Source of the DNA: Streptomyces sp. NBC_01353
GTDB taxonomy: Bacteria > Actinomycetota > Actinomycetes > Streptomycetales > Streptomycetaceae
Assembly: GCF_036237275.1 (NCBI RefSeq)
Contig: NZ_CP108353.1
Span: 1 to 64,000 of the forward strand
Direction of reading: 5' to 3'
DNA: 64,000 nt
This document shows positions 9,504 through 53,239 of this stretch, one piece after another. The translations under genes were made by a program, and so were the position numbers. The notes beneath the pieces were generated by a model, which worked only from the letters and a program-made list of their open reading frames with translations, was not told the DNA's origin and did not search any database. How positions within the stretch are numbered: position 1 is the first letter of the stretch; each line of letters opens with the position of its first letter.

Positions 9504-9536
9504 CCATTGCTCGCGCAATAGGTTATGGGCTAGCGT
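9504..9536 (+). promoter_or_regulatory. Operator-promoter site 1 of the TTGCGCG palindrome family
   Basis: The dyad core ATTGCTCGCGCAAT (9506-9519) sits over a possible -35 TTGCTC, with TAGCGT 18 bases downstream as -10. It precedes the small membrane protein gene at 9658. On the minus strand the site reads CCATAACCTATTGCGCG, close to sites 3, 4 and 6. Confidence 0.6.
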
Positions 9537-9657
9537 GACGGTACGGCACCGGCCGACCCTCCTGGCAAGAGGTGGGGCGGCCGGCTGCTGCCCGAACCCG
9601 CAAGGTCCTCCGGCAGGTGTCTCAGTGTGCCCACACCGTCCCTTCCGGAGGACCGTC

Positions 9658-9837
9658 ATGACCAACATCAGCCACGCCCACGACCGAATTCCGACCCAGC
9701 CCATCCTCTGGCTGCTTCTGCTCATTGCGGCCGGCCTCGCAGCCGTAGACGCCAATGTCGAGCAGGCAGCCCAGGCGCTCGGACTCGTGGTCGGCGTCGC
9801 GCAGCTCTTCCAGGCCGCGACGAGCAAGCCGCGCTAA
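9658..9837 (+). CDS. Small membrane protein (59 aa)
   Basis: ATG with CCGGAGG upstream. A single hydrophobic helix (PILWLLLLIAAGLAAV, residues 15-30) is followed by an amphipathic helix (EQAAQALGLVVGVAQLFQA). One or two membrane segments are expected. It lies just downstream of rep behind its own operator-promoter (9504-9536). Resembles small plasmid/phage membrane peptides in layout only. Confidence 0.6.
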   Translation: MTNISHAHDRIPTQPILWLLLLIAAGLAAVDANVEQAAQALGLVVGVAQLFQAATSKPR

Positions 9838-9987
9838 CGCGTGCGCAGTGCGGCGGCTTCCCGCCAGGTCGAGGCGTCTGGCGCCCTGCACCGTTCCAAT
9901 CAGCCATTTCCCGAATGCGCGCGGCCGCTGTCAGTACCGCGCGCCACCATGGGCTTAACCGCCCAAGACCGGCTTGGAGGCCAGTTG

Positions 9988-10704
9988 ATGGACGCCCGTG
10001 ACGTCGCAGCCCTGAACGACGGCGAGTACGAGCAGCTCGTTGTGATTCATGCCCACCCGCGTCGCCGCGAGGCCGACGTGTGGGCGGCTCTCATCCACCC
10101 CGACAACATCGACCGCACCCGGACCGCAGCCACCACCGTTCACGCCCGTACAGCCGCGACGATCCGCTGGAAGAAAGCCGAGCGCGAGAAGTACCAGCAG
10201 GAGTGCCACGCCCGCGGCTACGAGGGCAAGCAGGAATGGTTCGCGAGCAAGCCCGAGTTCGAGCAGTGGAAGCGGCGCACCGGGAACTTCCACCAGATGA
10301 TGCAGGCCGCGATCGCCGAACTCGGCCGGGCGAAGCGGGACACCAACCGGGCCCAGGGAGACCGCGGTGTCGGGCAGCAGCGTGACACCCTCCGAAAGCT
10401 CGCCGTGGCGATCCACCGCCACCAGGCCGCACACGCCCGCGCCGGCGGCATCGCCGAACAGGCCGACTACGAACTGTGGCGACTCCTGGACACCCTGACC
10501 GTCCCAATCGGCCATGACCAGGAAGCCGTTTCACTGCGGACCATGCTGGACATCTACTGGGCCGACGTCGAGCCCGTTACTGCGGCCGAGGAGGGCGCCA
10601 ACCGTGCCGAGCGGTCGATGCGTTCGGCACCGGCAGGGCAGTCCGGGCAGTACGCCGGCGTCCCGCGCGCCCGGCACGTCCACAACGGCAAGGACCTCGC
10701 GTAG
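9988..10704 (+). CDS. Hypothetical helical protein (238 aa)
   Basis: The chosen ATG (9988) has TTGGAGG upstream; starts further left lack a site. The product is rich in Arg, Glu, Gln and Ala, almost entirely helical, with Lys/Arg-rich stretches (TIRWKKAEREKYQQECHARGYEGK). Coiled-coil character is probable. No enzyme motif. Ends just before the first of two duplicated stem-loops. Confidence 0.6.
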   Translation: MDARDVAALNDGEYEQLVVIHAHPRRREADVWAALIHPDNIDRTRTAATTVHARTAATIRWKKAEREKYQQECHARGYEGKQEWFASKPEFEQWKRRTGNFHQMMQAAIAELGRAKRDTNRAQGDRGVGQQRDTLRKLAVAIHRHQAAHARAGGIAEQADYELWRLLDTLTVPIGHDQEAVSLRTMLDIYWADVEPVTAAEEGANRAERSMRSAPAGQSGQYAGVPRARHVHNGKDLA

Positions 10705-10720
10705 CCTCCACGCCCCCCGT

Positions 10721-10748
10721 GCCCCCGTTCCGCGCTCTGGACGGGGGC
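10721..10748 (+). terminator. Stem-loop terminator, copy 1
   Basis: 8-bp GC stem with 12-base loop downstream of the 238-aa gene. Confidence 0.6.
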
Positions 10749-10910
10749 GCTGGCGTGTCTCGGAGCTACTGGATGGCGCGTTGTCAGTAGGCTCAGGTTC
10801 AGCGGTCCGCGGAGGCCCGTACCGCGCCGGTGAAACCCCGGACGACAGAGGGTGTTGTGCGCCCACTCCGCACACTCAACTTCGGTGAGTGCTTCGTCGG
10901 CCCGCCCCTC

Positions 10911-13478: not shown

Positions 13479-14150
13479 TCACACTGCCTGGACGGTGCCC
13501 TCAGAGGTCGCCCGCCCTGTCTCGCCTTGGCGGTGCGGGATGTCTGCGGTGAGGGTCCAGGGCTTGTGGCCCGCGACGGTGCACGTGGCCCACAGCCGGA
13601 AGTCCTTCACCCCGTACTCCGCCCTCCACGCGTCGTAACCAGCGCCGTAGTGCTGGTGCGGATGGGTGGAGTTGAGAGCGAGTCTGTACTCCTCGCCCGG
13701 CGGCAGTGACAGGGGATCCGTGGTTCGGCCGATGTCGTCGCCGTAGGCGGTGGTCGTGAAGCGGTACGGGCCCCAGATCGTCCGGTCCCGCTCCTCGACT
13801 GTCAGGCTGCCGGCCAGGACCTGGTCGTTGCTGCGGTCCCGGTCGTCCCGAATGAGCAGCTCGAGCGAGTCCAGCTTCCCGAGCGACGACGGGCCGTCGT
13901 ACCGCACCACCAACTCCAGGAAGCCGCGTTCCTTCGTGACCCAGAAGAAGACCGCCGGCGTGAGCTCCTTGTGCCAGCGGTCGCGTTCGATCTGGGCGAC
14001 GGCCTCGGCCGTCTGGTAGGCGAGTTCGGCGGTTCGGTTCGCGACCTGGCCGTTGCGGTCGGCGCTCTTCGCGGCCTTCATGGCGCTCCACGCGGCCCAG
14101 CCACTGAAGGCGGCGGCCGCGGCGGCTATGCCGCCTTCGACGATGTCCAT
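13479..14150 (-). CDS. Membrane-anchored hypothetical protein (223 aa)
   Basis: The ATG at 14150 is preferred because the alternative at 14204 lies inside the operator palindrome. An N-terminal hydrophobic segment (GGIAAAAAAFSGWAAWSAM) is followed by a charged helix, then a beta-rich domain (FFWVTKERGFLELVVRYDGPSS, SLELLIRDDRD). This N-terminal anchor plus soluble domain is common in small Streptomyces proteins of unknown function. The start is uncertain. Confidence 0.55.
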   Translation of the reverse strand: MDIVEGGIAAAAAAFSGWAAWSAMKAAKSADRNGQVANRTAELAYQTAEAVAQIERDRWHKELTPAVFFWVTKERGFLELVVRYDGPSSLGKLDSLELLIRDDRDRSNDQVLAGSLTVEERDRTIWGPYRFTTTAYGDDIGRTTDPLSLPPGEEYRLALNSTHPHQHYGAGYDAWRAEYGVKDFRLWATCTVAGHKPWTLTADIPHRQGETGRATSEGTVQAV

Positions 14151-14192
14151 GCGGCATTCAACCGCACCTCGGTGTGCACGAAACCCCTCCCC

Positions 14193-14226
14193 CCTGTAAT
14201 CCATTGCGCGCGCAATGGATTACAGG
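14193..14226 (+). promoter_or_regulatory. Operator-promoter site 2, perfect 34-bp palindrome
   Basis: CCTGTAATCCATTGCGC and its exact complement abut at 14209/14210. TTGCGC within it is a possible -35, with TAGGGT 18 bases downstream as -10, directed at the gene at 14327. The minus-strand gene starts just left of it, so control in both directions is possible. Confidence 0.7.
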
Positions 14227-14326
14227 GTAGGGTGGGGGCACCCCGAAGACGTCACAGACCCGGGGGAATGACGCGCCGAAACCGCGCCACGCTAGAACCT
14301 CGCCCCCAGCCCCCGGGAGGACGCCA

Positions 14327-14956
14327 GTGCCTGTTGCCCTGCTCCCGCCGACCACCGGCAGCACCGTCACCCTCGACATCGAAGCCCTTACCGCCGGCCC
14401 CCGATTCCTCCGCACCCGCACCATGTCCCGCTGGCACCGACCCCGCAGCGGAACCCGACGCCCCGACGGCCGGGACTGCTTCACCGCCTGGTGCGGCTAC
14501 TCCATAGGCAGCAGCGACCGCGCGCCCGCCCTCACTGCGGAGGAAGTCCCCGACGGTGAGCTGGTGTGTGCGACGTGCGAGGGACGGGCGATCGGCGCCG
14601 GCCAAGAGCAGCAGACCGCCGGTGGACGCCAGCTCGTCTTCGGCCCGCGTGAACTCACGCCCCCGAAGACCTGCCCCGGGTCCCGACGTCACCTCATCCG
14701 GCCCGTGCGCGGCGGCACGACCGCCCTGTGCCTGGTCTGCGGCGACACCCACCCCGTCCGCGCCATGGGCGGCCCGTACAACCCGCGCATCGCGATCGTC
14801 CAACACCCGCCCGGCGCCGCCCTCGTGCAGCCGTGCCCGTTCCACCGGTGGCGCCAGCCCACCCACACCGAAGGCACCGTCCACTGCACCTGCGGCCGCC
14901 CCATGCCCGCCCCCGCCGTTAAGGAGACAGCCCCGTGTCCTACCCCGAACTGCTGA
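14327..14956 (+). CDS. Multi-zinc-motif protein (209 aa)
   Basis: GTG with GGGAGGA upstream. Several Cys/His clusters occur: CFTAWCGY, VCATCEGRA, LCLVCGDTHPVR, CPFHRW and HCTCGRPM. The layout suggests two or three small zinc ribbons. First gene of a long plus-strand operon whose promoter carries operator site 2. Proteins of this kind are frequent in actinophage early regions, but I cannot name a family. Confidence 0.6.
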   Translation: MPVALLPPTTGSTVTLDIEALTAGPRFLRTRTMSRWHRPRSGTRRPDGRDCFTAWCGYSIGSSDRAPALTAEEVPDGELVCATCEGRAIGAGQEQQTAGGRQLVFGPRELTPPKTCPGSRRHLIRPVRGGTTALCLVCGDTHPVRAMGGPYNPRIAIVQHPPGAALVQPCPFHRWRQPTHTEGTVHCTCGRPMPAPAVKETAPCPTPNC

Positions 14957-15330
14957 CCCCCGAGGAGAAGCTGGCCGACGCCAAGGAGCGGCTCTCCATT
15001 CCCGAGATCGTCGTCATCTGCGGCTCTACCCGCTTCATGCGCGAGATGACCGCCGCCGACCGCGCACTCACCTGGCATGGCCACATCGTCGTAAAGCCCG
15101 GCTGCGACATGAAGACCCCAGACCCGCTGTGGGCCGATGTCGAGGCCGCCGAGGAGGGCAAGAAGCGCCTCGACGACCTGCACCGGGCCAAGATCCGCCT
15201 CGCCAACTGGGTCCTCGTCGTCGGCGACTACATCGGCGACTCAACCCGCGCCGAGATCGCCTACGCCCGCTCCCTCGGTAAGACCGTCGACTTCACCCAC
15301 CCCGAGGTCGACCCCACGAGGCAGCCGTGA
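14935..15330 (+). CDS. Nucleoside 2-deoxyribosyltransferase-like protein
   Basis: 131 residues with an N-terminal VVICGSTRF segment, a central acidic helix, and HRAKIRLANWVLVVGDYIGDSTRAEIAYARSLGK, the pattern of the nucleoside 2-deoxyribosyltransferase/DUF4406-like fold (a (D/N)xxxxAD-type strand, then GxSTRAEI.YA). These enzymes recycle deoxynucleosides or act on nucleotide derivatives, useful for a phage during replication. The start GTG overlaps the previous gene by 22 bases. Confidence 0.7.
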   Translation: MSYPELLTPEEKLADAKERLSIPEIVVICGSTRFMREMTAADRALTWHGHIVVKPGCDMKTPDPLWADVEAAEEGKKRLDDLHRAKIRLANWVLVVGDYIGDSTRAEIAYARSLGKTVDFTHPEVDPTRQP

Positions 15331-15614
15331 CCCCGGTCCTCGTCGCTGCGGCAGCCGCGCTCGCTGCCGGCTACGTCCTCGGCCGGATCCGCCCCTGGGA
15401 CCGCCTCGACACCTGGGTCTGGCGCCGCCTCACTTTCATGGGCGACTGGACCAAGTCGACGCCCCAGCAGGTCATCACCATCGCGGCGCACGTCCTGGTC
15501 CGCCCCCGGATCTCGTACGACATCTGGCGCCGACGCAACGAGCCGCGCCCACCGGACCCCTCCCCCGCCATCCAGTTCCGCAGCACCACCGACCCCGAGG
15601 AGCCGACCCCGTGA
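15327..15614 (+). CDS. Small membrane-anchored protein (95 aa)
   Basis: GTG overlaps the upstream stop (GTGA). An N-terminal hydrophobic helix (VLVAAAAALAAGYVLGRI) precedes a soluble Trp- and Arg-rich region (WDRLDTWVWRRLTFMGDW) and a Pro-rich tail. One transmembrane segment with cytoplasmic tail is likely. No family recognised. Confidence 0.6.
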   Translation: MTPVLVAAAAALAAGYVLGRIRPWDRLDTWVWRRLTFMGDWTKSTPQQVITIAAHVLVRPRISYDIWRRRNEPRPPDPSPAIQFRSTTDPEEPTP

Positions 15615-16201
15615 CCGGACCCGACGACCCGGCGTGGCGGTGGGAGTTCCGCTGCGAGGACTTCGTCTACGCCCGCCTCGCCGAAGAAGACCGGCGCGCC
15701 GACCAGACGATGCTTCCCGGCCCTGCACAGGACCAGGCGCTGAACCGGATCGACTCCCTGTACCTGATCGCCTCCCAGCACAACATCTGGGTCGACTTCC
15801 GAGGCCGGTCCGCCGGCCGCTGCATCACCTGCAAGCCCTCCGACGGCGGCGTTCCCTGCCTCACCATGACCGGCCTGGCCCGGCTCTGGCGCCACCACCC
15901 CGACTACCGGCCCGGCTGGAACGACGCCATCGACCGCCCCGGATCCGGCAGTGGCTTCACGTACGAGGAGTACAAGAAGCGCTCCACGATCTGGACCCGC
16001 CGCGAAGCGGAGCTGAACGCCTTCTACGACCGATTCGACCTCGTCCCGGCCACCGGAGGCGTGGGCGAGTTCTGGCGGTGCCGGACATGCGGCGCACAGG
16101 GGGAGGAGCAGCGGCCGGTCCTCGGCGTCGATATCGCCCCCGCTATCAGTGACGGGCCCCGCCGACACCCCACCTGCACCCCGAACGGAGCCAGCGCGTG
16201 A
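15611..16201 (+). CDS. Hypothetical protein (196 aa)
   Basis: GTGA overlap with the previous gene fixes the start at 15611. Residues 1-60 form an acidic helical region; the middle contains RCITCKPSDGGVPCLTM and the end FWRCRTCGAQGEE, so one or two zinc motifs are possible. An HHPDYRPGW segment resembles the aHPdYre.W motif of DUF6221 proteins, but the rest differs. Part of the overlapping plus-strand operon. Confidence 0.6.
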   Translation: MTGPDDPAWRWEFRCEDFVYARLAEEDRRADQTMLPGPAQDQALNRIDSLYLIASQHNIWVDFRGRSAGRCITCKPSDGGVPCLTMTGLARLWRHHPDYRPGWNDAIDRPGSGSGFTYEEYKKRSTIWTRREAELNAFYDRFDLVPATGGVGEFWRCRTCGAQGEEQRPVLGVDIAPAISDGPRRHPTCTPNGASA

Positions 16202-17505
16202 CTGACACCCTGCGCAACCGCATCGCCCGCGCCATCCACCAGTACGACAACCAGCACGCCCTGGCCGGCAACGACATGCCCAGCAAGCACCATTACGGCG
16301 AGGCGGACGCCGTGCTCGCCCTCCTCTCCGACTTCGGCCCTCACTGGAAGGCAGCCAGCCAGGCCACTCACGCGGCGCCGACCGCCGGTAGCGGCCTGAC
16401 CGGCTGCTGCCGCCGAACGCCGTTTGAGCTGCCCCATACCGACCTGATGACCACAGACCCGAAGTTGGTCACCTGCGGCGCGGCCGACGGGCCGGCCATG
16501 ACGGCCGAACCCGACGACGAGGCCAGCCTGATCCCGCCTTCGGAACGCCGCGCGCAGCTCCTCGGCGAGCTCAGCGTCCCGATCGAGAACCAGCTGCGTG
16601 CCCAGGGGTACACCGAGGCGGCGGACGAGATCGTCGGCATCCTCACCGGGATCGCTTCCCAGGACGAAAGGCAGACCGCCCCGACGCCGCGTTGCGGGCA
16701 CTGCAAGGGCAGCGGCGCAGACCCCGAGGACGAGGGCGACTACCTGCCCGAGGTCGGCTGCCACAACCCGTACAGCGGCGGCCCCTGCCCCCAGTGCAAC
16801 GGCACAGGGACGCCCGCCGCCGAGCTCCTCGGCGCTGGCGAGTCCCGGTACACGGTCGACACGATCACGCCCGAAGCCCTGCATCAGCTGCAGGTCGACC
16901 GAGACAGCGCCATCCACGAACGGGACATGTACAAGCACCGCGCCGAACGCTGGCACACGCGTGCTACTCAGCTGAGGGCACTCACCGAACTGGCGGAGGA
17001 CCCGGCGCCCGCCCCCGACCGAGACCCCGAGCCGCGCGTGCCGCTCGCCGAGCACACCGACGCCACCCTGGCCGAGTTGTACGACCGGCTCGAGGACGCC
17101 GAAGCCGACGCGGCCGACGCCCGAGACGCCGGCCGCGCCATCTACCGCTCCTGGAACGAGCACCGGACCGCCCTGGCCGAGGGCGCCACCCTGGCGGCCG
17201 GCGTGCACAACACCCTCCTCGTCCTCCGCAGCAGGATGAAGACCAACTCCCGTGACTGGGCCGCCACCGAGGACGACGCCTGGCTGTACGCCGTCCTCAT
17301 GGGCTGGGACTGCGAGCAGCAGCACGACCACACCGACGACTGCGCCCGCCTCCTCCAGGAGGTCGCCGCCAAGCACGGCTGGTCTGAGGATCGTGTGGCC
17401 AGGATCCGTAAGTTCCGCGCCGCGCTCGCGAAGGCCGGCCCAAACGGCGAGACCGACGCCGCATCCGCCCGCGCGGCCGCCGACGAAACCACGGAGGAGT
17501 TCTGA
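16198..17505 (+). CDS. Large hypothetical protein with DnaJ-type zinc motif (435 aa)
   Basis: GTGA overlap at the start. Residues 1-30 are amphipathic; around residue 160 lies CGHCKGSGADPE and about 40 residues later CPQCNGTG, the two halves of a DnaJ-like zinc finger. An acidic helical coiled region (LYDRLEDAEADAADARDAGRAI) and another helix-rich segment follow. The segment TVDTITPEALHQLQVDRD recurs in the 288-aa protein at 28195-29061 (TVDTITPDELDALVAERD), so the two share a module. Function unknown. Confidence 0.65.
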   Translation: MTDTLRNRIARAIHQYDNQHALAGNDMPSKHHYGEADAVLALLSDFGPHWKAASQATHAAPTAGSGLTGCCRRTPFELPHTDLMTTDPKLVTCGAADGPAMTAEPDDEASLIPPSERRAQLLGELSVPIENQLRAQGYTEAADEIVGILTGIASQDERQTAPTPRCGHCKGSGADPEDEGDYLPEVGCHNPYSGGPCPQCNGTGTPAAELLGAGESRYTVDTITPEALHQLQVDRDSAIHERDMYKHRAERWHTRATQLRALTELAEDPAPAPDRDPEPRVPLAEHTDATLAELYDRLEDAEADAADARDAGRAIYRSWNEHRTALAEGATLAAGVHNTLLVLRSRMKTNSRDWAATEDDAWLYAVLMGWDCEQQHDHTDDCARLLQEVAAKHGWSEDRVARIRKFRAALAKAGPNGETDAASARAAADETTEEF

Positions 17506-18416
17506 TGGGCCGAGAAGTCCGCCGCGTCCCCCTCGACTTCGACTGGCCGCTGAACAAGGTCTGGGACGGCTACCTGATGCCCGACCGGTTCACCGAGACG
17601 CCGTGCGCTGACTGCAAGAACGGGTACTCGCCCCACGCCCAGAACCTGCACGACCTCTGGTACGGATACCTGCCCTTCAACCCGGAGAGCACCGGATCGA
17701 CGCCCCTGCGGCCCGACACCCCCACCGTTCGGGCTCTCGCCGAGCAGCACATCACCACCGCGCCGGAGTTCTACGGCACCGGCGAGACCGCCATCGTGTG
17801 CGAGGCGCAACGTATCGCGGAGCTGTTCAACGGCCTGTGGTGCCACCACCTGTCCCAGGACGACGTCGACGCACTCGTCGCGGCCGGCCGGCTGTACTCC
17901 TTCACCCACACCTGGAACCGCGAGCACGGCTGGCAGAAGATCGAACCCCCGGTGGTGCCCACCGCTGCACAGGTCAACGAGTGGAGCCTGCGCGGCATGG
18001 GACATGACGGCATCAACGCGTCGGTCGCCGTCCAAGCCCGCTGCGAACGTGAAGGCTTCCCCCTCGAGTGCCCAAGCTGCCACGGATACGGGTCGGCCGA
18101 GGCCTACGCCGGCCAACGCGCGGAGGCCGAGGCCTGGGAGCCGACCGAGCCTCCCACAGGCGACGGCTGGCAGCTGTGGACCACCGCCAACGAAGGTGCC
18201 CCGATCAGCCCCGTCTTCGCTTCAGCCGACGAACTGGCCTCGTGGATGTCCGACCCCGCCCGCGGTACCGCCTGGGTGCCGCCCGCGACCGCCGCCGCGT
18301 TCATCGCCGACGGGTGGGCGCCTAGCTTCGTCAGCACCGCCGAGACCGGCGTCGTCTCCGGTGTCGAATGGATGGGCCACCACACGACTTCGGGGGACGC
18401 GGGTGACGACGCCTGA
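17505..18416 (+). CDS. Conserved actinophage-type protein (303 aa)
   Basis: TGATG overlap with the previous gene. The N-terminus MGREVRRVPLDFDWPLNKVW is a pattern I associate with a widespread hypothetical family of Streptomyces phages and phage-like elements. A zinc pair (CADCKNGYSP and CPSCHGYG) brackets the protein. The last 80 residues contain repeated short motifs (WTTANEGAPISPVFASADELASWM). No enzymatic role is known to me. Confidence 0.65.
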   Translation: MGREVRRVPLDFDWPLNKVWDGYLMPDRFTETPCADCKNGYSPHAQNLHDLWYGYLPFNPESTGSTPLRPDTPTVRALAEQHITTAPEFYGTGETAIVCEAQRIAELFNGLWCHHLSQDDVDALVAAGRLYSFTHTWNREHGWQKIEPPVVPTAAQVNEWSLRGMGHDGINASVAVQARCEREGFPLECPSCHGYGSAEAYAGQRAEAEAWEPTEPPTGDGWQLWTTANEGAPISPVFASADELASWMSDPARGTAWVPPATAAAFIADGWAPSFVSTAETGVVSGVEWMGHHTTSGDAGDDA

Positions 18417-18567
18417 AACCCGCGCCCGCCTCGGCGCCCTGGAGCAGCAACTTGCCACCCCGACCCCGAAGCCCCTCGACGGCCAGACCGCCATCCCACT
18501 CCCGCCCGATGAAGACCCTGCGCCCGACTGCGGGGAGCAGCTCCACCAGGAAGGCGAACTCGTATGA
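18403..18567 (+). CDS. Small hypothetical protein (54 aa)
   Basis: GTG with CGGGGGA upstream, starting inside the preceding gene and overlapping the next by four bases (ATGA). Pro-rich, acidic, without motif. Coupling supports translation. Confidence 0.45.
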   Translation: MTTPETRARLGALEQQLATPTPKPLDGQTAIPLPPDEDPAPDCGEQLHQEGELV

Positions 18568-19166
18568 GCCCGATCACCGACTTCAACCCCGGCGCCCGCA
18601 ACGACGCCCGCCGCGACCCGCGGTACGCCGCAGTGCTGGAGCAGGTGCGGAAGATGTCGTGGCCAGCCGGGAACCCGATGCTCCCCGGGGGCTGGGCCGA
18701 CACTCTGGCGACGGACGTGATGGCCGCAGTGCGGAAGGAGGAGGGACAGCACCGGCTGATCACCCACCACGCGTACGAAGGCCCGGGCGAGTGCCGCGCG
18801 CAGTACTACGGCCTCGGCGGCTGCGGGTACCCGGAGTCCGAGCACGCCCCTGCCGAGGCGCCGACAGCTCCGGCGCCCCCGATGCCGCCCTGCGCGGCCC
18901 GCGAGGACTCCCTCGCCGCGACGAGCCTGACGCTCGACGGCCCGCTGTACGTCCTCGAGGGGCCGGCCGACCCGACGGTCGAGATCCAGGGACCGGGCGG
19001 GCAGCCGCTCGTCACGATCCACACGGAGACCGGGGTCATCGACTACGGGCCCGGGTACACGCCGGACGCCGCGGCGGCCGCGTTCTGGGACGCCCTGTCA
19101 CGGCTGGGGCAGTCGTTGTCCGCAGGCCTCGACCGACTGCCAGCGCCCTCACCCGACGGCTACTGA
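18564..19166 (+). CDS. Hypothetical protein (200 aa)
   Basis: Last gene of the overlapping operon. N-terminal helical half (AVLEQVRKMSWPAG..WADTLATDVMAAVRKEEGQHRLITHHAYEGPGECR), then a Pro/Ala linker and a small beta-type domain (GPLYVLEGPADPTVEIQGPG). CGYPESEH may be a metal site. The family is unrecognised. Confidence 0.55.
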   Translation: MSPITDFNPGARNDARRDPRYAAVLEQVRKMSWPAGNPMLPGGWADTLATDVMAAVRKEEGQHRLITHHAYEGPGECRAQYYGLGGCGYPESEHAPAEAPTAPAPPMPPCAAREDSLAATSLTLDGPLYVLEGPADPTVEIQGPGGQPLVTIHTETGVIDYGPGYTPDAAAAAFWDALSRLGQSLSAGLDRLPAPSPDGY

Positions 19167-19853
19167 CCACTCGATACCTTCGGTACGCCGACATCACTCG
19201 TTCGGGTGATGGGACGTGCCGTAAGCGGTTTCCGGGGCAGGCGAACACCACCACCCCCGACCATCGCGCCGCCCCCGCGGTGCCCGCCACGAGGAGGCGC
19301 CTGGTGCTCTGGCCAGCACTCTCACACCCGAACCCTGGGCACGGGAAGGCCCTGGGCAGCGGTGGAGGGTGCTGCCCAGGGCCGGAGGGGCGCCAGGACG
19401 AACCGAGGGGGGCACGTGCCTGGCTGTCCCTCACGGCCGGCGTCGAGGACGCGACGCGGTGGCGATTGTCGGCACCGGCCGTAGAACAGGGGAGTCGCCC
19501 TCGGTGCTCCGGCTTGCATCGAAGCGGAACGAAGCCGAGCTGCGATATCCGCGCGAGAACACGAATTACGGCGACGTTCCAACTCCGCCCCGACCGGAGC
19601 CCCGGCGAGGGCAACAGGGCTTTCGCTACGAGGCGTATCTGACGGATTCCCGCCAGGCTCCTCGCAGTTAGGTCCTGCTGTGTTGCAGCGTGACCGCCAT
19701 GACTGCTTCCCGGCAGGTCAGCGGCGACCACGTGCACAAGCTTGAGGGTTCAACGGACAAGAAATCTACGCAGAGTTTTTATTACGAAACCCTGCGCCAC
19801 TAAATAGACTCCACAGCGCGACACGTGCGCGATACACGGGGGGATGAAACTAG
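19167..19853. other. Gene-free stretch with a strong hairpin and AT-rich promoter region
   Basis: No frame has both coding bias and a ribosome site. A perfect 13-bp stem (19348-19383) lies here. The right end (about 19740-19810) is AT-rich, with an obvious drop in GC, and is the likely promoter of the XRE regulator. The composition change marks the left border of the cargo-like block. Confidence 0.5.
19348..19383 (+). terminator. Strong stem-loop
   Basis: GGCCCTGGGCAGC, 10-base loop, exact complement. Placed 180 bases beyond the end of the operon; could terminate it or belong to an unannotated RNA. Confidence 0.55.
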
Positions 19854-20693
19854 ATGGGTATGAACAAGCGGGCGCTCAGGGCACTTCTGCGGGAACGCCG
19901 CGCCCTCATCGATCCGGAAGCCCACGGATTCGAACGCCCACAGGGCCGCGGCCGCCGCGCCAGAGGCCTCACCCAACACCAGGTTGACGAGATCACCGGC
20001 CGCGCCATGCACTCCTACAACCGGCTCGAGACCGGCAGCATGAAGTCCGCCCCCACCGTGGAGTACCTCGCCGAAGTCGCACGCCTCTTCGGCCTCAACG
20101 AACAAGAGTGGGTCAGCCTCTGCAGGTTCGCCGGCATCGGCGACCCGCCCGGACCCCTGTACCAAAAGTCCGGCCTCGAGGTCCCCGGCGTGTGGAAGCA
20201 GGCCATCGACTGCATGTCCGAGATGGCCTACGTCACCGACGCGTCGTGGAACCTCCTCGCCCACAACAAGCACTGGGCAGCCCTGTTCCCCGGCGGCCGA
20301 ATCCCCCAAAACACGATGCGGTGGATGCTCCTCGACCCCGACGCCCGCAACACCCTCATCGACTGGAAGACCGCCTGGGCACCCCTCGTCGTCCCCCAGC
20401 TCAAGGCCGCACTCGCCGTCCGCACCACCGACGAAACGCTTCGCCAGCTCGAGAAGGAAGTCATCGCCGACCCCGACCTGCTCCCCCTGTGGGAAGCCGG
20501 CGGCGCCGCGATACACCCCGACGGCGACGAACGCCCCCTGCTCCACGCCATCGAAGGCCCCGGCCACGTCACCATGTGCGCTGCCGAACCCATGACCGCC
20601 CCCGGAGCCCGCCTGATAGTCCTGCTGTGGCACCCCGGAGCGAAGAAGCAGCACGTCCGCGTACCCATGCTTCGGGCCCGTGACATCACCTGA
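19854..20693 (+). CDS. XRE-family regulator with MmyB-type sensor domain (279 aa)
   Basis: ATG with GGGGGGA upstream. Residues 20-90 form an XRE helix-turn-helix (RRARGLTQHQVDEITGRA, SYNRLETGSM, VEYLAEVARLFGLNEQEW). From residue 120 the sequence matches the MmyB-like ligand-binding domain (YVTDASWNLLAHNKHWAALFP, MRWMLLDPDAR, VVPQLKAALAVR, PLWEAGG). MmyB-like regulators often sit beside secondary-metabolite genes in Streptomyces; MmyB itself belongs to the methylenomycin cluster of plasmid SCP1. Here the next gene encodes a type III polyketide synthase, which it probably controls. Effector unknown. Confidence 0.85.
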   Translation: MGMNKRALRALLRERRALIDPEAHGFERPQGRGRRARGLTQHQVDEITGRAMHSYNRLETGSMKSAPTVEYLAEVARLFGLNEQEWVSLCRFAGIGDPPGPLYQKSGLEVPGVWKQAIDCMSEMAYVTDASWNLLAHNKHWAALFPGGRIPQNTMRWMLLDPDARNTLIDWKTAWAPLVVPQLKAALAVRTTDETLRQLEKEVIADPDLLPLWEAGGAAIHPDGDERPLLHAIEGPGHVTMCAAEPMTAPGARLIVLLWHPGAKKQHVRVPMLRARDIT

Positions 20694-20776
20694 CCAGTGA
20701 TCAGGGGGAATGCGGACATCTTGCTGACGTACGGTGTCCGCACCCCCCACGCCGACCAACGTGCTGGAGGCCCAGC

Positions 20777-22161: not shown

Positions 22162-22182
22162 CCCCTCGGCTCCAGACGCGTC

Positions 22183-40064: not shown

Positions 40065-40089
40065 GCTGGTCAAGCGGTGTGAGCGGCAG

Positions 40090-40402: not shown

Positions 40403-40445
40403 TGTGATGAGTGTGTGGGCGACTAGTAGACCAGCGGCACGGCGA

Positions 40446-41207: not shown

Positions 41208-41546
41208 TCAGACGAGCTCGGGGGCGCGCCTCATCTCCTCGAGCATCACGCGCAGGTCCTGATACTGGGACTCCCCCACGACGTCGTGGGCGCGGGCGCC
41301 GTCGACTAGCAGGAGGACCGCATCGAGGGTGGAGACGAACGTCGAGGCGGTGGCCGGGTCGTTCAGACTCTGACCACTGGCGAGGAGCATCGACTGCACC
41401 GTGAAGGCCAGTTCCTGCTCCGAGCTGTGTTCGACGGCGGCGAGCGGGACCTTCGTACGGCGGGACCGGTGAGCAAGGTGGATCACGGAACCGTCGCCGG
41501 GGCCGGGGCCGGCCGGGGGCGTGGGTGCGTGCTCTGCTGAGGTCAT
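41208..41546 (-). CDS. Hypothetical helical protein (112 aa)
   Basis: ATG with GCGGAGA. The C-terminal 60 residues (LAFTVQSMLLASGQSLNDPATASTFVSTLDAVLLLVDGARAHDVV) are hydrophobic-helical. N-terminus Pro/Gly-rich. Not recognised. Confidence 0.5.
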   Translation of the reverse strand: MTSAEHAPTPPAGPGPGDGSVIHLAHRSRRTKVPLAAVEHSSEQELAFTVQSMLLASGQSLNDPATASTFVSTLDAVLLLVDGARAHDVVGESQYQDLRVMLEEMRRAPELV

Positions 41547-42009
41547 TGGGGCGTCTCCGCTCCGGGGCAGTCGGGAAGGGTTCTCGCTGCCCGGCTCCCC
41601 TGGTCGGGCTTCGAAGCCGGGATGGCTGCCATCCACCCCGGGGAGGCCACTGTCCCACCAAACCGGACCGTCTGGGGAGGTCGGGTCGGTTTTTAGAGCC
41701 TTCTTGCATAAACAAACCACACGATTCAGGCCATACCGAGGGCGGGTGGGGCCGAAAAAGTACGGAACCGTGTCCATGAACGCGAACGGCCCCTGCGGTA
41801 CGTGGGGACGGAGTTTTGCCGACAACGACCACGACGCCCCGCAGGGGCCCAGAGACCTCACGGGCAAGCCCGTCAGATGACGGTGATTGTAGTGAAGAGG
41901 CTCGCCACACGGGTAGGGGCATCCCCGGCCACTCCCCCGTCCGCATCCGGACATGAAGCGGCCCCGCTCCCCCACTGTCGGGTGAGGGGCGGGGCCGCTG
42001 TGGCCGGTG
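41547..42009. other. Intergenic region with long-stem hairpin and AT-rich segment
   Basis: Between the 112-aa gene and the parB terminator. Contains an AT-rich part (41690-41725), a long-loop inverted repeat (GGCCCCTGCGG, arms at 41788-41798 and 41839-41849) and a strong terminator. No supported ORF on either strand. Confidence 0.5.
41958..41998 (-). terminator. Terminator after parB
   Basis: GCGGCCCCGCTCCCC stem, 11-base loop, near-perfect complement; 12 bases beyond parB. Confidence 0.75.
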
Positions 42010-43323
42010 TCAGTCCTGCAGGAGAGCAGTCACCTTGGCCAGGATGCTCGCGAGCTCCTCGCGCTCGGCCGGACTGCAGCTCTCGCGCATGGCCGCCGCG
42101 ACGGTATCCGGGTCGCCGACCGCGAAGTACCGGTGGACCAGGCGGCTTCGCTGGTGGTCGTCCATCGCCTTGAAGGCAATATCCATCACGGCAGCGCCGT
42201 CCCTCCACGGCATGGCCGGCACACCGGACGAAGGACCCGCCGGGCGCAGCGGCGCTTCAACAGTCGGAGCGTTGGCGGGTTCCGGCTCGGGCGCGCTGCC
42301 CGGGTCGGCGTCTGCGCCGTCGGCGAGGACGGGAGTCCGGCCGTCGCGGTTGGATCGCGGGTCCGGGACCGGGGCGGGCCTCTCAGGGACCATTGCTCTG
42401 TGGAAGTCGGCCGGCTTCGCCCAGTTGACGCCGCCGTCCGGGCCCCTCTCGAGTGGACGTTCAGACGCCAGCACGGCACTACGTGCACCTTCGGCCGCGG
42501 TCTGCTCCGGTGAGGATGTCCCCGCCGGTCTTACGGCCGTAAAACTTTCGCCGCTGGCTGCTGCCGGCGTGGGCGCCTCGGCCTCGCGCTTGGCGGCCTC
42601 CTTCGCCTCGCGCCTTTCCTCGGCTGCCCTGTGACGTTCGGCTTCGCGCGTGGTCCACCACGCGTCTTGCTGCTCGGCGGTGAGGCCTTCCTTCTTGACC
42701 AGTGCGCCGAGCTTGCGGGCGTCCTCGAGGGTGATGTCCTTCGCGCGCACACGGTCCTGTATCCCGGGGTGCAGGTAGGTGAGGCAGACGCGTTGGGTGA
42801 CCCAGCCGTCGACCCGCTCGAAGTGCTCCGCGACCTTGCGGTTCGATCCGAACTCGGCGACCAGGGCCGCGACCGCGTACGCCTCTTCGATGTGGTCGAA
42901 GTTCTGCCGGTCGACGTTCTCGGAGACGACTGCCTCCATGAACGTCTTGCGGTCCTTGGCGAAGTCGTCGTTGGCGACGCAGTCGAGGGTGCTCAGTCCG
43001 ACGGCGGATGCGCCTCGGTAGCGCCGCTCGCCGCTGACAAGGACGTAGTCGATCTCTCCGATGCGGTCGGCGTGCTCGGGCCAGAGCTTCAGGTAGGAGC
43101 TGCGGCTGACCACGGGGCAGGGCTGGTTCTGGCGGCGGGCGAGGCTCTTACCAAAGTCGATCAACTCGTCCTTGGTGCCGAAGTCGGTCCTCGGGTTGAC
43201 CAGGTTCGGTGACAGGCGTGTGAGGGGCACGCGGTAGAGCCGGCCGTCGGCCTTGGTATCGACGACGGGCGACGCATCTGCATCGGCGCCCCAGAAGTCG
43301 TCGTACTCATGCCGGTCGCTCAT
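42010..43323 (-). CDS. parB: ParB-family partition protein
   Basis: 437 residues, starting one base into the ParA stop (TGATG). ParB features in order: LYRVPLTRLSPNLVNPRTDF (N-terminal domain), DYVLVSGERRYRGASAVGL (GERRxRA CTP/nuclease box), NFDHIEEAYAVAALVAEFGSNRKVAEHFERVDGWVTQRVCL (HTH), a long acidic/Ala linker, and a C-terminal domain. It should load on the GTTTTACGGCCGTAAAAC sites upstream of parA. A copy of that site with one change lies in the coding region (42528-42545). The tail is longer than in chromosomal ParB. Confidence 0.9.
   Translation of the reverse strand: MSDRHEYDDFWGADADASPVVDTKADGRLYRVPLTRLSPNLVNPRTDFGTKDELIDFGKSLARRQNQPCPVVSRSSYLKLWPEHADRIGEIDYVLVSGERRYRGASAVGLSTLDCVANDDFAKDRKTFMEAVVSENVDRQNFDHIEEAYAVAALVAEFGSNRKVAEHFERVDGWVTQRVCLTYLHPGIQDRVRAKDITLEDARKLGALVKKEGLTAEQQDAWWTTREAERHRAAEERREAKEAAKREAEAPTPAAASGESFTAVRPAGTSSPEQTAAEGARSAVLASERPLERGPDGGVNWAKPADFHRAMVPERPAPVPDPRSNRDGRTPVLADGADADPGSAPEPEPANAPTVEAPLRPAGPSSGVPAMPWRDGAAVMDIAFKAMDDHQRSRLVHRYFAVGDPDTVAAAMRESCSPAEREELASILAKVTALLQD
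42528..42545. repeat. parS-like site inside parB
   Basis: Same 18-bp palindrome as the two sites upstream of parA, with one mismatch (GTCTTA instead of GTTTTA). Confidence 0.6.
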
Positions 43324-44051
43324 CACCTGGCCCCCGCGTACTTCTGCCTGCGCAGCTGGTGCTCGAGGGCGAGGGCCACGAAGTCCTGCTTGGCCTTGGT
43401 GGCGGTGTGGTTCGACTCGTATTGAGTGCAGAACCGGCCGGCGGTGATGCCGCGGGCGTGCGGCTTGTAGTGCCGGATGGTGGTGTTGTACAGCTCCCAG
43501 TTCCGCGTCTTCACGACGTTCTGGGTTCGCTCGAGGTCGGCGTCGCTGTCGCGGGGGTCCCAGTTGCTGATGAGCACGCCGTAGGGGATCTGCCGGGGGA
43601 TCAGGACGCGCTCGATTGTCGTCTTGGTGGGGGTGAATCCGGCGCCCTCGGCCTCGAGCGGGACGATGACGTCGTCGGCGATGTCGAGGATTGCCCTGAG
43701 GGAGTCGCCGACGGTTCCGTCGCCGAGGGGGTCGATGGACTCGTCTGCTGCCTTGCCCTTGAGGGGCATGAAGCCGGGGGTGTCGACGATGATGATGTCG
43801 GCCCGGGCGCGGCGCAGGCGCCTCAGGTTCTCGGTGTTGTCGCTGGCGTCCACGACTCGGAAGGGGACGGGCCGACCCTGCTGCTGGACCTTGTCGGCCC
43901 ATTCGATGCTGGTGCCCTGAGGGTCTATCGAGACGACGGCGACGGACTGGGCGTCTCCGAGGATCTCGGAGTAGACGGCGGCGAGGTTGACCGTGATGGT
44001 CGACTTCCCGACTCCGCCCTTCTGGTTCAAAAGCACGGTGATGTACGGCAT
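43323..44051 (-). CDS. parA: ParA-family partition ATPase
   Basis: 242 residues with GGAGA site. Deviant Walker A KGGVGKST at residues 11-18, VVSIDPQGT and ADIIIVDTPGF (Walker B), then IPYGVLISNW. No N-terminal HTH, so it is a short ParA like chromosomal ones. With ParB it moves plasmid copies, driven by ATP and the nucleoid. Immediately before parB, sharing one base. Confidence 0.93.
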   Translation of the reverse strand: MPYITVLLNQKGGVGKSTITVNLAAVYSEILGDAQSVAVVSIDPQGTSIEWADKVQQQGRPVPFRVVDASDNTENLRRLRRARADIIIVDTPGFMPLKGKAADESIDPLGDGTVGDSLRAILDIADDVIVPLEAEGAGFTPTKTTIERVLIPRQIPYGVLISNWDPRDSDADLERTQNVVKTRNWELYNTTIRHYKPHARGITAGRFCTQYESNHTATKAKQDFVALALEHQLRRQKYAGAR

Positions 44052-44608: not shown

Positions 44609-44636
44609 GACGGCCTCCACGCTGGGCACCGCCGGA

Positions 44637-44653
44637 ATATTGCGTCGCAATAT
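44637..44653. promoter_or_regulatory. 17-bp palindrome ATATTGCG-T-CGCAATAT
   Basis: Perfect dyad between the DciA-like gene and the 98-aa gene. TTGCG/CGCAA half-sites recall the operator family but with a tighter core. Confidence 0.5.
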
Positions 44654-44665
44654 CGCGGCGCCGTG

Positions 44666-49743: not shown

Positions 49744-51441
49744 TCAGGCCGCTTCTGCGGCCTGGGAGGTGTGCAGGACGGCGCGGAGGCGTTCCCCGAT
49801 CCACCAGCCGACCTGAGGGGAGACGGCGTTGCCGAAGCCGTCGACCTGGTCGCGGGCGGTGCCCCACACGGTGAAGGTGCCGGTGTACTCGCGGAAGTTG
49901 ACGTCGAACCCGCAGCCGCGGCCGATCTCGGGGGCGGACATCATGCGGTAGAAGCACTCCTCGAACGGCACCTGCGACAGCGCGGGCCCCCACCGTGCGG
50001 TGAGGAGCGCTGTGGTGTCGCGGGAGGTGAGCGTGCCGAGCGGGTCGGTGACCGGATGGGCCGCAGTCTCGGTGCCGGTGGGCCCGTTCTGCTTGAACCA
50101 GCCGGCCGCGGTGAGTACGCCGGGGATCTGTTCCGCGGTGAACGTCGACATGGGTTCCATGTGCACCGCGGGCACGGTGTTCTTCCGGTACGGGATGACC
50201 CCGGAGGAAACGACGGCGAGAGTCTCGGACCCGACCTGGGTGGGCAGCGGGTCGCTCGCCCCGCGCGGGGCGCCCTGGTAGTTGTCGACGGCGAGCGCGA
50301 GCGCCGCCTCCTCCCACAGCCCCGGGCCGGTGGACAGGAGAGCCGCCTCCTGCTGGCTCGTCTGCGTCGCCAGCGGCTGCAGCAGCAGCCGCTCCGAGCC
50401 GTGCACGCCCTTCGCGGGCATCAGGATCGCCGGGAAGTCGGCGAACTTCTGGCGGCACCGCTCGATACGGGCGGTCGTCGACGCGGCGAACGGCCCGCGG
50501 TGGCCGTCCTTGAACTCCTTGACCGGCCGATCGCCGATGCGGGTACCGAGGTCGCTGAGGTCGAGCGCGGCAAGGGACGGCGTGGCCGGCGGCTCGACGC
50601 GGGTCCGGCACGACGGGCACCGGTACTCGTACTGCTCGCCATAGGCGACCTTCCCGGTCGGCGGGATCCCCGTGCGCCAGGTCCAGACCGCCTCCACGTC
50701 CTTATCGCAGCGGTGGCAGCGGGACACCGGCCGGTGCTCCAGGTCCGGCATCGGCAGCGACTTGTGCACGAACACCCAGTAGCCGCGGTTGCGGGACTGC
50801 GGAACCCCGAAGAACTGGGAGTTCAGGAACAGCACCCGGTGGTTGTAGTCGAGCAGGTCGAACTGCTTGAGCCACCACCGGTAGGTACTGCCGTCGCCGA
50901 TCTTCTTGCTGCCTGGCAGGAGCGGACCCCACGACTGGAGCTCGGTGGTGCACTCCACGAGGATCAGCCGCGGCCGGTGCGTCTGTGCGTAGTGCAGCAC
51001 GCAGTTCGCGGTCGCCCGGTCCCGCTCGGAACGGGTTACTCGGTCCTCGTAGTCGGGGTCGTCCATGCTGAACAGGGATAGCCCCTGTGCATACGCTTTG
51101 GTCGTGTTGGCCTGCGAGTGGTTCACGCAGCTGACCCCGGCGACCAGTAGGTCCGCAGGAGGAAGGTCGCGGGCGGAGTGGTAGTCCGCAGCCTGGGGGT
51201 TGACCAGGTCGGCGATCCAGTGTTCGGCCTCGGGGTGGTTCGCCTCGTGGACCTCGACCTTGTAGGCGTTGTGGTTCGCGGCCATGATCGTGGTGAACCC
51301 GGCCCGCTTGATGCCTTCGGTGAGGCCTCCGAAGCCGGAGAAGAGGTCGACGGCGACGTACTCGTCGTGGCGGAACCGCCGGCGCTTCGTGGCCGGCCGG
51401 TGGGTGGCGGTGCGGGGCAGCTTCTTCGATGCGAGGGCCAT
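49744..51441 (-). CDS. DNA cytosine-C5 methyltransferase with zinc-ribbon insert
   Basis: 565 residues, starting one base into the upstream stop. Motif I is VAVDLFSGFGGLTEGIK. Motif IV is altered, GVSCVNHSQAN, with catalytic Cys but no PPC. Motif VI is ILVECTTEL (the ENV-equivalent). VIII is PQSRNRGYWV, and X is GFGNAVSPQVGWW. Between VIII and the target domain CHRCDKDVEAVWTWRTG..YRCPSCRT is a zinc ribbon. Methylation could protect the element from host restriction. No cognate nuclease is visible, so it is probably a solitary phage methyltransferase. Confidence 0.88.
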   Translation of the reverse strand: MALASKKLPRTATHRPATKRRRFRHDEYVAVDLFSGFGGLTEGIKRAGFTTIMAANHNAYKVEVHEANHPEAEHWIADLVNPQAADYHSARDLPPADLLVAGVSCVNHSQANTTKAYAQGLSLFSMDDPDYEDRVTRSERDRATANCVLHYAQTHRPRLILVECTTELQSWGPLLPGSKKIGDGSTYRWWLKQFDLLDYNHRVLFLNSQFFGVPQSRNRGYWVFVHKSLPMPDLEHRPVSRCHRCDKDVEAVWTWRTGIPPTGKVAYGEQYEYRCPSCRTRVEPPATPSLAALDLSDLGTRIGDRPVKEFKDGHRGPFAASTTARIERCRQKFADFPAILMPAKGVHGSERLLLQPLATQTSQQEAALLSTGPGLWEEAALALAVDNYQGAPRGASDPLPTQVGSETLAVVSSGVIPYRKNTVPAVHMEPMSTFTAEQIPGVLTAAGWFKQNGPTGTETAAHPVTDPLGTLTSRDTTALLTARWGPALSQVPFEECFYRMMSAPEIGRGCGFDVNFREYTGTFTVWGTARDQVDGFGNAVSPQVGWWIGERLRAVLHTSQAAEAA

Positions 51442-52460
51442 CAGGCGACGTTCCTTTCATTCCGTTCCTCGGCGGCCTGCTCCAGCTCGGTGATCCGGAC
51501 GGTGACCAGGGTCCGCATCGGCATCCACGCGCCGTGCGGACCCTGCACCTTCTCGTCGAAAACGTGGTGGGCCTCGGCGTCGCCCTTGATCTGCCGCAAG
51601 GCGTCGGGGCTGTTCCAGCAGGCGGCGTCGGCAACCTGGGCCATGAGCCGCTGGACGTGGGCGTCGCGGTCCTCCTTGGCGGGCGCGTCAGCCCGGTCGT
51701 GCGTTGTGGCGACGCCGTGCTCGGCCGCCACCTGCGCGGCGACCTGCGGTGCTTCCTTTGCCCTGCGCTCCTCGCGCTGCGCGGCCTCGGCCTTCAGCTC
51801 CGTGCCCCGCGCTACCAGGAGGTCCCCGAGCGCGATGTCGCCGTCGGGCCCCGACACGGTGGAGTTGAGCAGTCCGTCGGACTTGGCCTCGGCGTGCAAA
51901 CCGAGCAGCGCGTTGACGTTGTTCCAGACGGCGGGCTTCCGCAGCCGCTCCATGTAGGCATCGGCCGGGGACCGCTGGCCCACAGGGTGGTCGCGGTCGC
52001 CGTCGTCCAGCGCCCCAGCGTCGACCGGGATCATGAAGGTCTGAAGGAGCGCGTACTTCAGCGCGGCCGACATGGCCTTGTTGGACGCCTTGTCGGCCAC
52101 GTCCGATGCCTCGCCCAGGGTGATCGCCGTGACCTTGTCGCCAGCCGGGCCGATGAAGTGGAAGGCGACGCGCATGTGGACGGCGTTCATCTTCCCGCGG
52201 ACAGAGGGCTGGAAGTCGAGGACCTCGGGCAACATGACCACCCCGTGGTCGCGGAGCGGCTGTGCGAGGGCGCCGATGAAATCGTCGACCCCGCGGAAGT
52301 TGTAGTTCTGGGAGGCGTTCCGCCCGTTCTTGGCGACGTTCTTCACGTCCGCCATGACGCGAGACATCAGGACGTACACGCTGGGGTGGTCCTGGTTCGG
52401 GGTGTGCGAGGTCGGGCCCTCCGCCGTGATGCTGGCGGGGGCCTCGGTGGCCGCGGCCAT
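51441..52460 (-). CDS. ERF-family single-strand annealing recombinase
   Basis: 339 residues, AGGAGA site. The ERF core is clear: VYVLMSRVMADVKNVAKNGRNASQNYNFRGVDDFIGALAQPLRDHGVVML, and GEASDVADKASNKAMSAALKYALLQTFMIPV. The C-terminus is an Ala/Glu helical extension. ERF proteins anneal single strands coated by SSB in phage recombination and circularisation. An SSB and RusA are encoded elsewhere in the window. The call is confident. Confidence 0.93.
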   Translation of the reverse strand: MAAATEAPASITAEGPTSHTPNQDHPSVYVLMSRVMADVKNVAKNGRNASQNYNFRGVDDFIGALAQPLRDHGVVMLPEVLDFQPSVRGKMNAVHMRVAFHFIGPAGDKVTAITLGEASDVADKASNKAMSAALKYALLQTFMIPVDAGALDDGDRDHPVGQRSPADAYMERLRKPAVWNNVNALLGLHAEAKSDGLLNSTVSGPDGDIALGDLLVARGTELKAEAAQREERRAKEAPQVAAQVAAEHGVATTHDRADAPAKEDRDAHVQRLMAQVADAACWNSPDALRQIKGDAEAHHVFDEKVQGPHGAWMPMRTLVTVRITELEQAAEERNERNVA

Positions 52461-52545
52461 GAGGTCTCCTAGCTATGGGGTTGTGGCTGTACTACGGCGG
52501 TAGAGGGCCCGGTTGTCGGCGTCCAGGCCCGCTTCCGCGACCGGA

Positions 52546-53112
52546 CTACTGCTGGGCGAGCTGCTCGGCCGGCGCGATGTCGTACTTCTCGATCAGCCAG
52601 GCCTTCACGACGTGGCCGAGGGCCGGCTTGTAGCCGAGGTCGCTCTCGCGGGCGTCGACGGCCTCCTGGAAGCGGGCCCTGAGGCCAGAGTCGACACGGA
52701 CGTTGAGAGTGCCGGTCTCCAGGCCCGTGTTACGCCGGACCCGGTGGGCGCCGGCGACCGGGGAGAACGTGCCGGCGATGAACGCATTCAGACCCTCGGC
52801 GACGTCCTTCGGGACGGACTTGCTGGCGGCCTGAATGGCGGTCCGGGTGACGAGCGGCATGTGGACCGGCAGGTTCGGGGCTCCGGTGATGTCGATGGCG
52901 TGCCGAAGTTGGCCCCAACCCTGCGGAAGCAGCAGCTCGTCGATAGTGGCGGCCAGTTCGGGGGCGCCGGTCTCGGTCAGGTGCTTGGAGGCGGCACGGA
53001 GGTTGTTCACGAGCTCGGTGGCCTTCTTGGAGGGCACGGTTCGGGGTCCCTTCGGGGGGCGCCCGATAGTCCGGCGGGGGGCCGTCGGCGGGCGGGTACG
53101 GGCATGTGTCAT
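52546..53112 (-). CDS. Ribbon-helix-helix-like protein, candidate master repressor (188 aa)
   Basis: ATG with GAAGGGAG. Basic Pro-rich N-terminus (RTIGRPPKGPRTVPSKKA), a helical core (VNNLRAASKHLTETGAPELAATIDELL), and C-terminal TLNVRVDSGLRARFQEAVDARESDLGYKPALGHVVKAWLIEKY, which has the strand-helix-helix spacing of RHH DNA-binding domains. Two palindromes of the TTGCGCG family lie just upstream (53132-53154 and 53200-53234), fitting autoregulation. It is therefore a candidate for the factor that binds all six sites. No sequence family identified. Confidence 0.6.
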   Translation of the reverse strand: MTHARTRPPTAPRRTIGRPPKGPRTVPSKKATELVNNLRAASKHLTETGAPELAATIDELLLPQGWGQLRHAIDITGAPNLPVHMPLVTRTAIQAASKSVPKDVAEGLNAFIAGTFSPVAGAHRVRRNTGLETGTLNVRVDSGLRARFQEAVDARESDLGYKPALGHVVKAWLIEKYDIAPAEQLAQQ

Positions 53113-53131
53113 GCCAGTCTCCCTTCAGTTC

Positions 53132-53154
53132 CATTGCGTGCGCAACGGGACATG
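53132..53154. promoter_or_regulatory. Operator site 5
   Basis: CCATTGCG-TG-CGCAACGG, an imperfect dyad 20 bases before the RHH-gene ATG; it could block the ribosome-site region or a second promoter. Confidence 0.55.
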
Positions 53155-53199
53155 GCTGTGGTGTGTCGGGAGCGGGTGCGTTCCGACAGGGAGAGTATT

Positions 53200-53239
53200 A
53201 CCCATATTCTGTTGCGCGGCAACAGAATATGGGTATTGT
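53200..53239. promoter_or_regulatory. Operator-promoter site 6, perfect 16-bp arms
   Basis: ACCCATATTCTGTTGC-GCG-complement. On minus TTGCCG and AATACT are 17 bases apart; on plus TTGCGC and TATTGT are 16 apart. One palindrome thus covers both divergent promoters. Confidence 0.85.

Follow-up and report, generated by a model that had tools for sequence, protein, structure and literature searches.

The first 64,000 bases of contig 2 (93,006 bp) in the two-contig genome of Streptomyces sp. NBC_01353, here called the window, carry six palindromic sites with TTGC in one arm and GCAA in the other, together with a gene for a 188-amino-acid (aa) protein in which two tandem ribbon-helix-helix (RHH) motifs are predicted (Table 1). 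Judged by gene content and synteny, the contig is a ZL12-like Streptomyces phage-plasmid, part phage and part plasmid. The six palindromes named in the original prediction are real and far above chance. A half-site matrix trained on seven operators (14 half-sites) of two relatives, QHH-9511 and S. griseoluteus, ranks exactly these six at the top of the window, with scores of 44.4, 38.7, 34.9, 34.9, 33.0 and 24.9 and the next best site at 4.0. Training was restricted to these relatives because an earlier matrix, built in part from sites of the window itself, had made the scan circular. On 40 Markov shuffles the matrix gave a maximum of 16.1 (mean 6.5), and it found nothing above 4.6 in the remaining 29 kb of the element. 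Sites 2 and 6 are indeed perfect palindromes. Across the whole genome, a 22-base operator pattern with up to three mismatches matched only within this element, and a 30-base pattern matched the element plus one chromosomal place (L150:9956) in the stretch 7,750,500-7,770,400 of contig 1. Since that stretch contains pieces resembling related elements, up to 90.8% identical to QHH over 1.8 kb, we take the chromosomal place for a relic rather than a host target.

Table 1. Operators, associated genes and conserved operator places (O1 and O2, the two operators upstream of the RHH gene)
Feature	Position	Strand	Description
Operator 1	9497-9528	+	Imperfect palindrome, spacer 4; promoter TTGCTC (9507)-18-TAGCGT (9531) toward 9658-9837
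Operator 2	14192-14227	+	Perfect palindrome, 18-nt arms; promoter TTGCGC (14204)-18-TAGGGT (14228) toward 14327-14956
Operator 3	33466-33496	-	Spacer 3; promoter TTGCCG-17-TAGAGT (33458-33463) toward 33204-33401; conserved place behind the SSB gene
Operator 4	39985-40015	-	Spacer 3; promoter TTGCCG-17-TATGGT (39977-39982) toward 39566-39910; conserved place between the orthologs of 40093-40308 and 39566-39910
Operator 5 (O2)	53124-53155	-	Degenerate; just upstream of the ribosome-binding region (GAAGGGAGACTGGCATG) of gene 52546-53112
Operator 6 (O1)	53199-53235	both	Perfect palindrome, 17-nt arms with 3 nt between; divergent promoters
Candidate operator-binding repressor	52546-53112	-	188 aa; two predicted tandem RHH motifs
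Rival or second regulator	40093-40308	-	72 aa; MerR/Xis-like winged helix by eye; adjoins operator 4
ERF-family gene	51441-52460	-	Next after 52546-53112 in that direction
Divergent gene	53273-53611	+	112 aa; PHROG 10890 (unknown function)
First gene behind operator 4	39566-39910	-	Followed by same-strand genes toward RusA (36378-36896)
Conserved locus 1	upstream of the ortholog of 52546-53112		Operator in 11 of 11 relatives
Conserved locus 2	between the orthologs of 40093-40308 and 39566-39910		Operator in 11 of 11 relatives
Conserved locus 3	behind the SSB gene		Operator in 11 of 11 relatives; placed in some by one neighbouring gene only

The sites lie on promoters. At five of the six, the TTG of the inner arm begins a -35-like hexamer and a -10-like hexamer of the form TAnnnT (TAGCGT, TAGGGT, TAGAGT, TATGGT or TATTGT) follows 16-18 nt further on, just outside the other arm, where the original prediction had expected such an arrangement at four sites or more. 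Because of this placement, a bound protein would block the promoter. The sixth site (53124) sits at the ribosome-binding region of the RHH gene. O1 has TTGCGC-16-TATTGT on the plus strand and, read from the sequence, TTGCCG-16-TAATAC on the minus strand, TAATAC being outside the TAnnnT pattern. The claim of one operator set dispersed through the element stands, with five control loci instead of six because two sites serve one divergent locus. Among 51 sites assembled by eye from 12 elements, 47 show TAnnnT 16-18 nt away on one strand or both, compared with 0.4% of random or shifted positions; the figure of 47 is an upper bound, since some of the sites came from a search that required a -10 box. 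The four sites lacking the box are the four of plasmid pCQ3 (Streptomyces sp. W9), which by eye have TAGTGG at 19 nt.

The element is placed in the ZL12 family because phage head or tail genes occur together with parAB in its relatives QHH-9511, pCQ3, NBC_01005 and NBC_01369 (the plasmids opened whole, 85-92 kb), because Streptomyces phage ZL12 has a homolog of the candidate regulator gene at 29% (in two ZL12 records) and operator sites flanked by genes syntenic with the window, and because a further relative, pSLE1, is described in print as syntenic with pZL12 (PMC4487206). Plasmid records matching a 24-kb part of the window number 57, of which 56 are from Streptomyces and none covers more than 80% of the query; in the phage collection, megablast found no nucleotide match to window positions 14000-34000.

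When the window genes are mapped onto the relatives, an operator is kept at three syntenic positions in every one of 11 (conserved loci in Table 1), and counterparts of operators 1 and 2 occur in some. O2-like copies precede the same gene in many relatives, as seen by eye. Within an element the operators share a mean of 6.84 of nine flank bases, against 4.30 between elements, a difference reached in none of 2000 label shuffles, and each element therefore has its own operator sequence type. Comparison with related elements, which had been proposed as a check, thus finds the sites conserved and their type coherent within each element; several copies of one operator at different promoters are what is found in dispersed-operator phage regulons.

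The 188-aa protein is predicted to be a tandem RHH protein resembling TraY of the F plasmid. In the AlphaFold2 model, motif 1 comprises a strand (residues 80-86) and two helices (87-96, 100-113), and motif 2 likewise a strand (133-139) and two helices (142-159, 165-176), the RHH blocks having predicted local distance difference test (pLDDT) values of 90-96. The model thus shows both the strand-helix-helix order and the two motifs per chain of TraY. What it would share with TraY is an RHH dimer fold within one chain; it differs in its extra N-terminal helices and in having its sites at phage-plasmid promoters. The protein had no Pfam match up to E=5 and no PHROG match up to E=1, in searches of a kind that miss many short RHH families, and no meaningful sequence match in the PDB; one of nine family members alone matched FitA-like_RHH (E=0.48). 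Matches to the protein were found in 34 plasmid records, all from Streptomyces, in 10 of 392 Streptomyces genomes and in the two ZL12 records. Viral scans with the G310 and pCQ3 proteins found no relatives, and one with alignment A1 nothing useful. By eye, many relatives have a longer form with a second pair of RHH motifs. In several relatives a WYL-domain gene occupies the place of the divergent gene 53273-53611.

A natural experiment is provided by pCQ3 and its sister IMGVR_UViG_2657245717, which share blastn pieces totalling 55,345 nt at 91.6% identity. A pattern search finds four operators in each, at the same four places, and their type differs at all four: CATG[AT]CGTA and variants in pCQ3, CATACTC[CT]A throughout in the sister. 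Three of the four, far from the RHH gene, lie within pieces that are 91.5-94.9% identical, with nearly identical downstream flanks. O1 and the RHH gene form an island of 62-75% identity per 100 nt, bordered by stretches of 97-100%. Identity between the two RHH proteins is 50.5%, only five of the 79 matched proteins (median 93.2%) being lower. Among nine proteins common to 11 elements, seven are 92.8-100% identical in this pair; the exceptions are the RHH protein and a 139-aa protein (4654-5073), which has no Pfam match and whose divergence does not track the operators (r=-0.03). The 72-aa proteins of the pair agree at 70 of 72 residues. ParA and ParB have also changed. If the binder is assumed to be a protein shared by all these elements, a changed RHH gene is the most economical cause of the operator change. 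A diverged protein can keep its contacts; it is harder to see how about half the flank bases could change when the protein differs at 2 of 72 residues. The pair would thus have been caught after a switch of specificity, the RHH protein and the four scattered operators having changed in concert.

Operator type also covaries with the RHH protein across the wider set of elements, and does so with the 72-aa protein encoded beside operator 4. The correlations are 0.33 (RHH) and 0.30 (72-aa) over 22 elements and 0.32 and 0.30 over 33, both remaining significant when the other is allowed for. In an initial Mantel test, with 11 elements, the 72-aa protein had scored 0.61 and RHH 0.29 (p=0.07); we think that the value of 0.61 was inflated by a 25-aa QHH fragment and by a normalisation that favours fragments. 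By segment, correlations are higher for the ribbon strands of RHH (0.28-0.37) than for the 72-aa protein's recognition helix (0.17-0.20) or wing (0.16-0.25), and a cross-test of 21 elements shows the RHH protein following the operator of the other locus (0.30; partial 0.19, p=0.013). Seven of 33 aligned RHH proteins have Trp or Phe at position six of the strand-1 segment; an ATACTC operator accompanies all seven and none of the remaining 26 (Fisher 2.3e-7). The seventh is that of the pCQ3 sister; its RHH similarity to five of the other six (those compared) is just 0.28-0.32, and the combination therefore likely arose in two separate occurrences. G375 was kept out of the RHH comparisons, its RHH gene reading in two pieces; G348 was dropped (operator beside the 72-aa gene not found), as was L088 (neither site convincing). 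QHH was in the tests of 22 and 11 elements and outside that of 33, because only 40 aa of its 72-aa gene can be read across the ends of the record. For L068, L072 and L084 O1 alone was used, and the operators beside the 72-aa gene of N1005, N1369, N1259 and seoulensis and O1 of the own element were entered by eye.

Other candidate binders were set aside. In the 11-element test, which covered nine proteins, GntR and the MmyB-like helix-turn-helix protein not among them, operator type was not tracked by WhiB (r=0.07), a Rep-like helix-turn-helix protein (0.10) or a DciA-like protein (0.21, p=0.077). Genes 34713-35504 and 53273-53611 have no QHH homolog by tblastn at 1e-4, despite the same operators there; homologs of the 34713 type are present in other relatives, and the corresponding pCQ3 gene (75006-75791) is 96.5% identical in the pCQ3 pair.

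The original prediction named no regulator; on the strength of the comparisons between elements we favour, at a probability of about 70%, the reading that the six palindromes are the operators of one element-encoded repressor, most likely the 188-aa protein. Each chain would fold its two beta-alpha-alpha motifs into one pseudo-dimer, as in TraY, and a pair of chains would meet head to head on the palindrome, each inserting its two-stranded ribbon into one of the arms. The bound chains would then cover the -35 hexamer, which begins in the inner TTGC, and the stretch up to the -10 hexamer, excluding RNA polymerase. Through O1, and through O2 at the ribosome-binding region, the protein would repress its own divergent promoter pair, and it would act likewise on four other promoters, so that the phage-plasmid would be under autoregulated control of the immunity type. 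The binding, stoichiometry and repression in this scheme, and the role in the plasmid (lysogenic) state, are what we infer.

Several observations weigh against assigning the operators to the RHH protein. TTGC and GCAA stand 3 nt apart at 33466, 39985 and 53202 and 4 nt apart at the remaining sites, and a rigid protein would not be expected to accommodate such variation. The RHH gene heads the operon whose repressor it would encode, which is more usual for second regulators of the Cro kind, and Foldseek by itself gave a weak fold match (best E 0.37). In the pCQ3 pair other genes have changed too, since 38 of the 121 pCQ3 proteins tested have no match in the sister, some of them annotated helix-turn-helix (122 features, with 39307-43986 left out), and five matched proteins, among them ParB (27%), are more diverged than RHH. 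Six of the seven Trp/Phe proteins are related, which makes that association not independent. The 72-aa protein keeps a correlation given RHH over the 33 elements (0.18, p=0.005), leads over the 11 whole elements (0.42 against 0.34, with partials of 0.29, p=0.04, and 0.14, p=0.25) and tracks the unlinked O1 weakly (0.16, p=0.025), a signal that given RHH falls to 0.07 (p=0.17). Finally, 8 of 9 operator bases next to the 72-aa gene are retained both in G283/G277 and in N1005/N1238, pairs in which RHH similarity is 0.25 and 0.35 and that of the 72-aa protein 0.74 and 0.79. The correlations alone do not settle which protein reads the operators.

The pairs with kept operators and unlike RHH proteins leave room for a two-regulator switch analogous to that of lambda CI and Cro, in which both proteins would read the same operators, the 72-aa protein keeping the plasmid state and the autoregulated RHH protein acting after induction. 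The independent partial correlations of both proteins fit such a switch, as does the position of the RHH gene behind one of the six window operators, the 72-aa gene lying behind none; the unchanged 72-aa protein of the pCQ3 pair speaks against it, and we consider it unlikely. A little less likely still is that the 72-aa protein is by itself the operator-binding repressor, with RHH only a co-regulated early product. Its occurrence in 16 of 392 Streptomyces genomes and in 14 of 17 virus records (the other three being 33-71 kb), its correlations and the two pairs just described argue for it; its near identity in the pCQ3 pair despite four operators of different type, the lower correlations of its recognition helix and wing, and its failure to track O1 once RHH is allowed for argue against. 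It is very improbable that the palindromes serve partition (as parS) or some other structural purpose: they are palindromic and repeated, their TTGC...GCAA core resembles the ATATTGCGWCGCAATAT palindromes near parAB, and ParB differs in the pCQ3 pair, but those parS-like palindromes are separate from the operators and near the par genes, 47 of 51 operators have a -10 box at a fixed distance, and the element's own ParA/ParB are, of four relatives, closest to those of NBC_01369 (76/58%), yet its operators are QHH-like.

The 72-aa protein has no Pfam or PHROG match. Its leader (40310-40380, minus strand) is strikingly conserved in 15 aligned elements, with a core GGAGCTGCGAAC in a short hairpin of seven predicted pairs, two of which are changed on both sides; L084 has a variant and L088 lacks it. 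Rfam gave no match to the leader at gathering score and three below it (E 0.18-0.55).

Phage RHH repressors are familiar from Arc and Mnt of phage P22, which are single-motif proteins, unlike the tandem candidate. Operators scattered over a phage-plasmid are known for C1 of phage P1, with asymmetric sites and another protein family, and inverted repeats scattered over a Streptomyces phage for the phiC31 repressor, again of another family. The likeness to the stoperators of mycobacteriophage L5 drawn in the original prediction is not borne out. The window sites are palindromes over promoters, and elements of this type have 4-6 of them and a regulator of a different predicted fold, whereas L5-type sites are asymmetric, mostly in one orientation and also in transcribed regions. 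Work on the L5 clade describes dispersed sites for one repressor whose motifs differ between related phages (PMC6550527), the asymmetry of the stoperators (PMC9283540), and their mostly single orientation at up to 30 per genome (PMC6550527). Another related system is F55 of SSV1, an RHH repressor that keeps the carrier state of an archaeal virus and binds copies of its site at several early promoters and its own (PMC9608457); it differs in being a 55-aa protein of an unrelated archaeal virus, with 11-nt sites. Searches of open-licence papers on Streptomyces phage-plasmid repressors and operators, on RHH immunity repressors and on pCQ3 found no account of the present system.

Some further features of the elements were noted. 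The parS-like palindromes ATATTGCGWCGCAATAT lie at 44635-44655 in the own element and at 40631, 40961 and 41030 in QHH (L008). Modules seem to reassort between elements, since the own ParAB resembles that of NBC_01369 whilst the own operators resemble those of QHH. The window also has a cluster of TGAGCGCGCTCA-type inverted repeats at 2160-2400, and palindromes with GGTGGCGTCACTGATGACG in tandem at 8421-8489, a similar palindrome occurring in QHH (L007 32421). At 19860-21844 an MmyB-like helix-turn-helix gene is followed by the ortholog of a gene that carries the name PhlD in relatives and is called type III polyketide synthase in ZL12.

The symmetry of the operators varies among the 12 elements. 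In five of them the halves are near-symmetric (6.8-8.8 of 9): four have a two-motif RHH protein, and the fifth is G375, with its broken RHH gene. The halves are asymmetric (3.2-5.7 of 9) in three more two-motif elements and in each of the four that have the longer form, which hints that this form may read its site as a covalent pair.

Overall, the window holds a real, conserved promoter-operator set in a known kind of element, with a strong candidate for its repressor that the family libraries searched do not name. Somewhat short of even odds is the wider proposal that tandem-RHH immunity repressors form an undescribed family of ZL12-like Streptomyces phage-plasmids, with specificity set largely by one ribbon strand and changing as a unit: O1 and the repressor gene would be exchanged as a cassette, the distant operators ending up of the matching new type in little-changed DNA, and four-motif forms would be covalent doubles reading asymmetric operators. 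How dispersed operators follow a new repressor is directly testable in these elements. A role as phage regulator is suggested for the TraY-like tandem RHH fold. If the proposal is true, the ZL12-like phage-plasmids would gain a master regulator, and the operators could predict which elements exclude each other.

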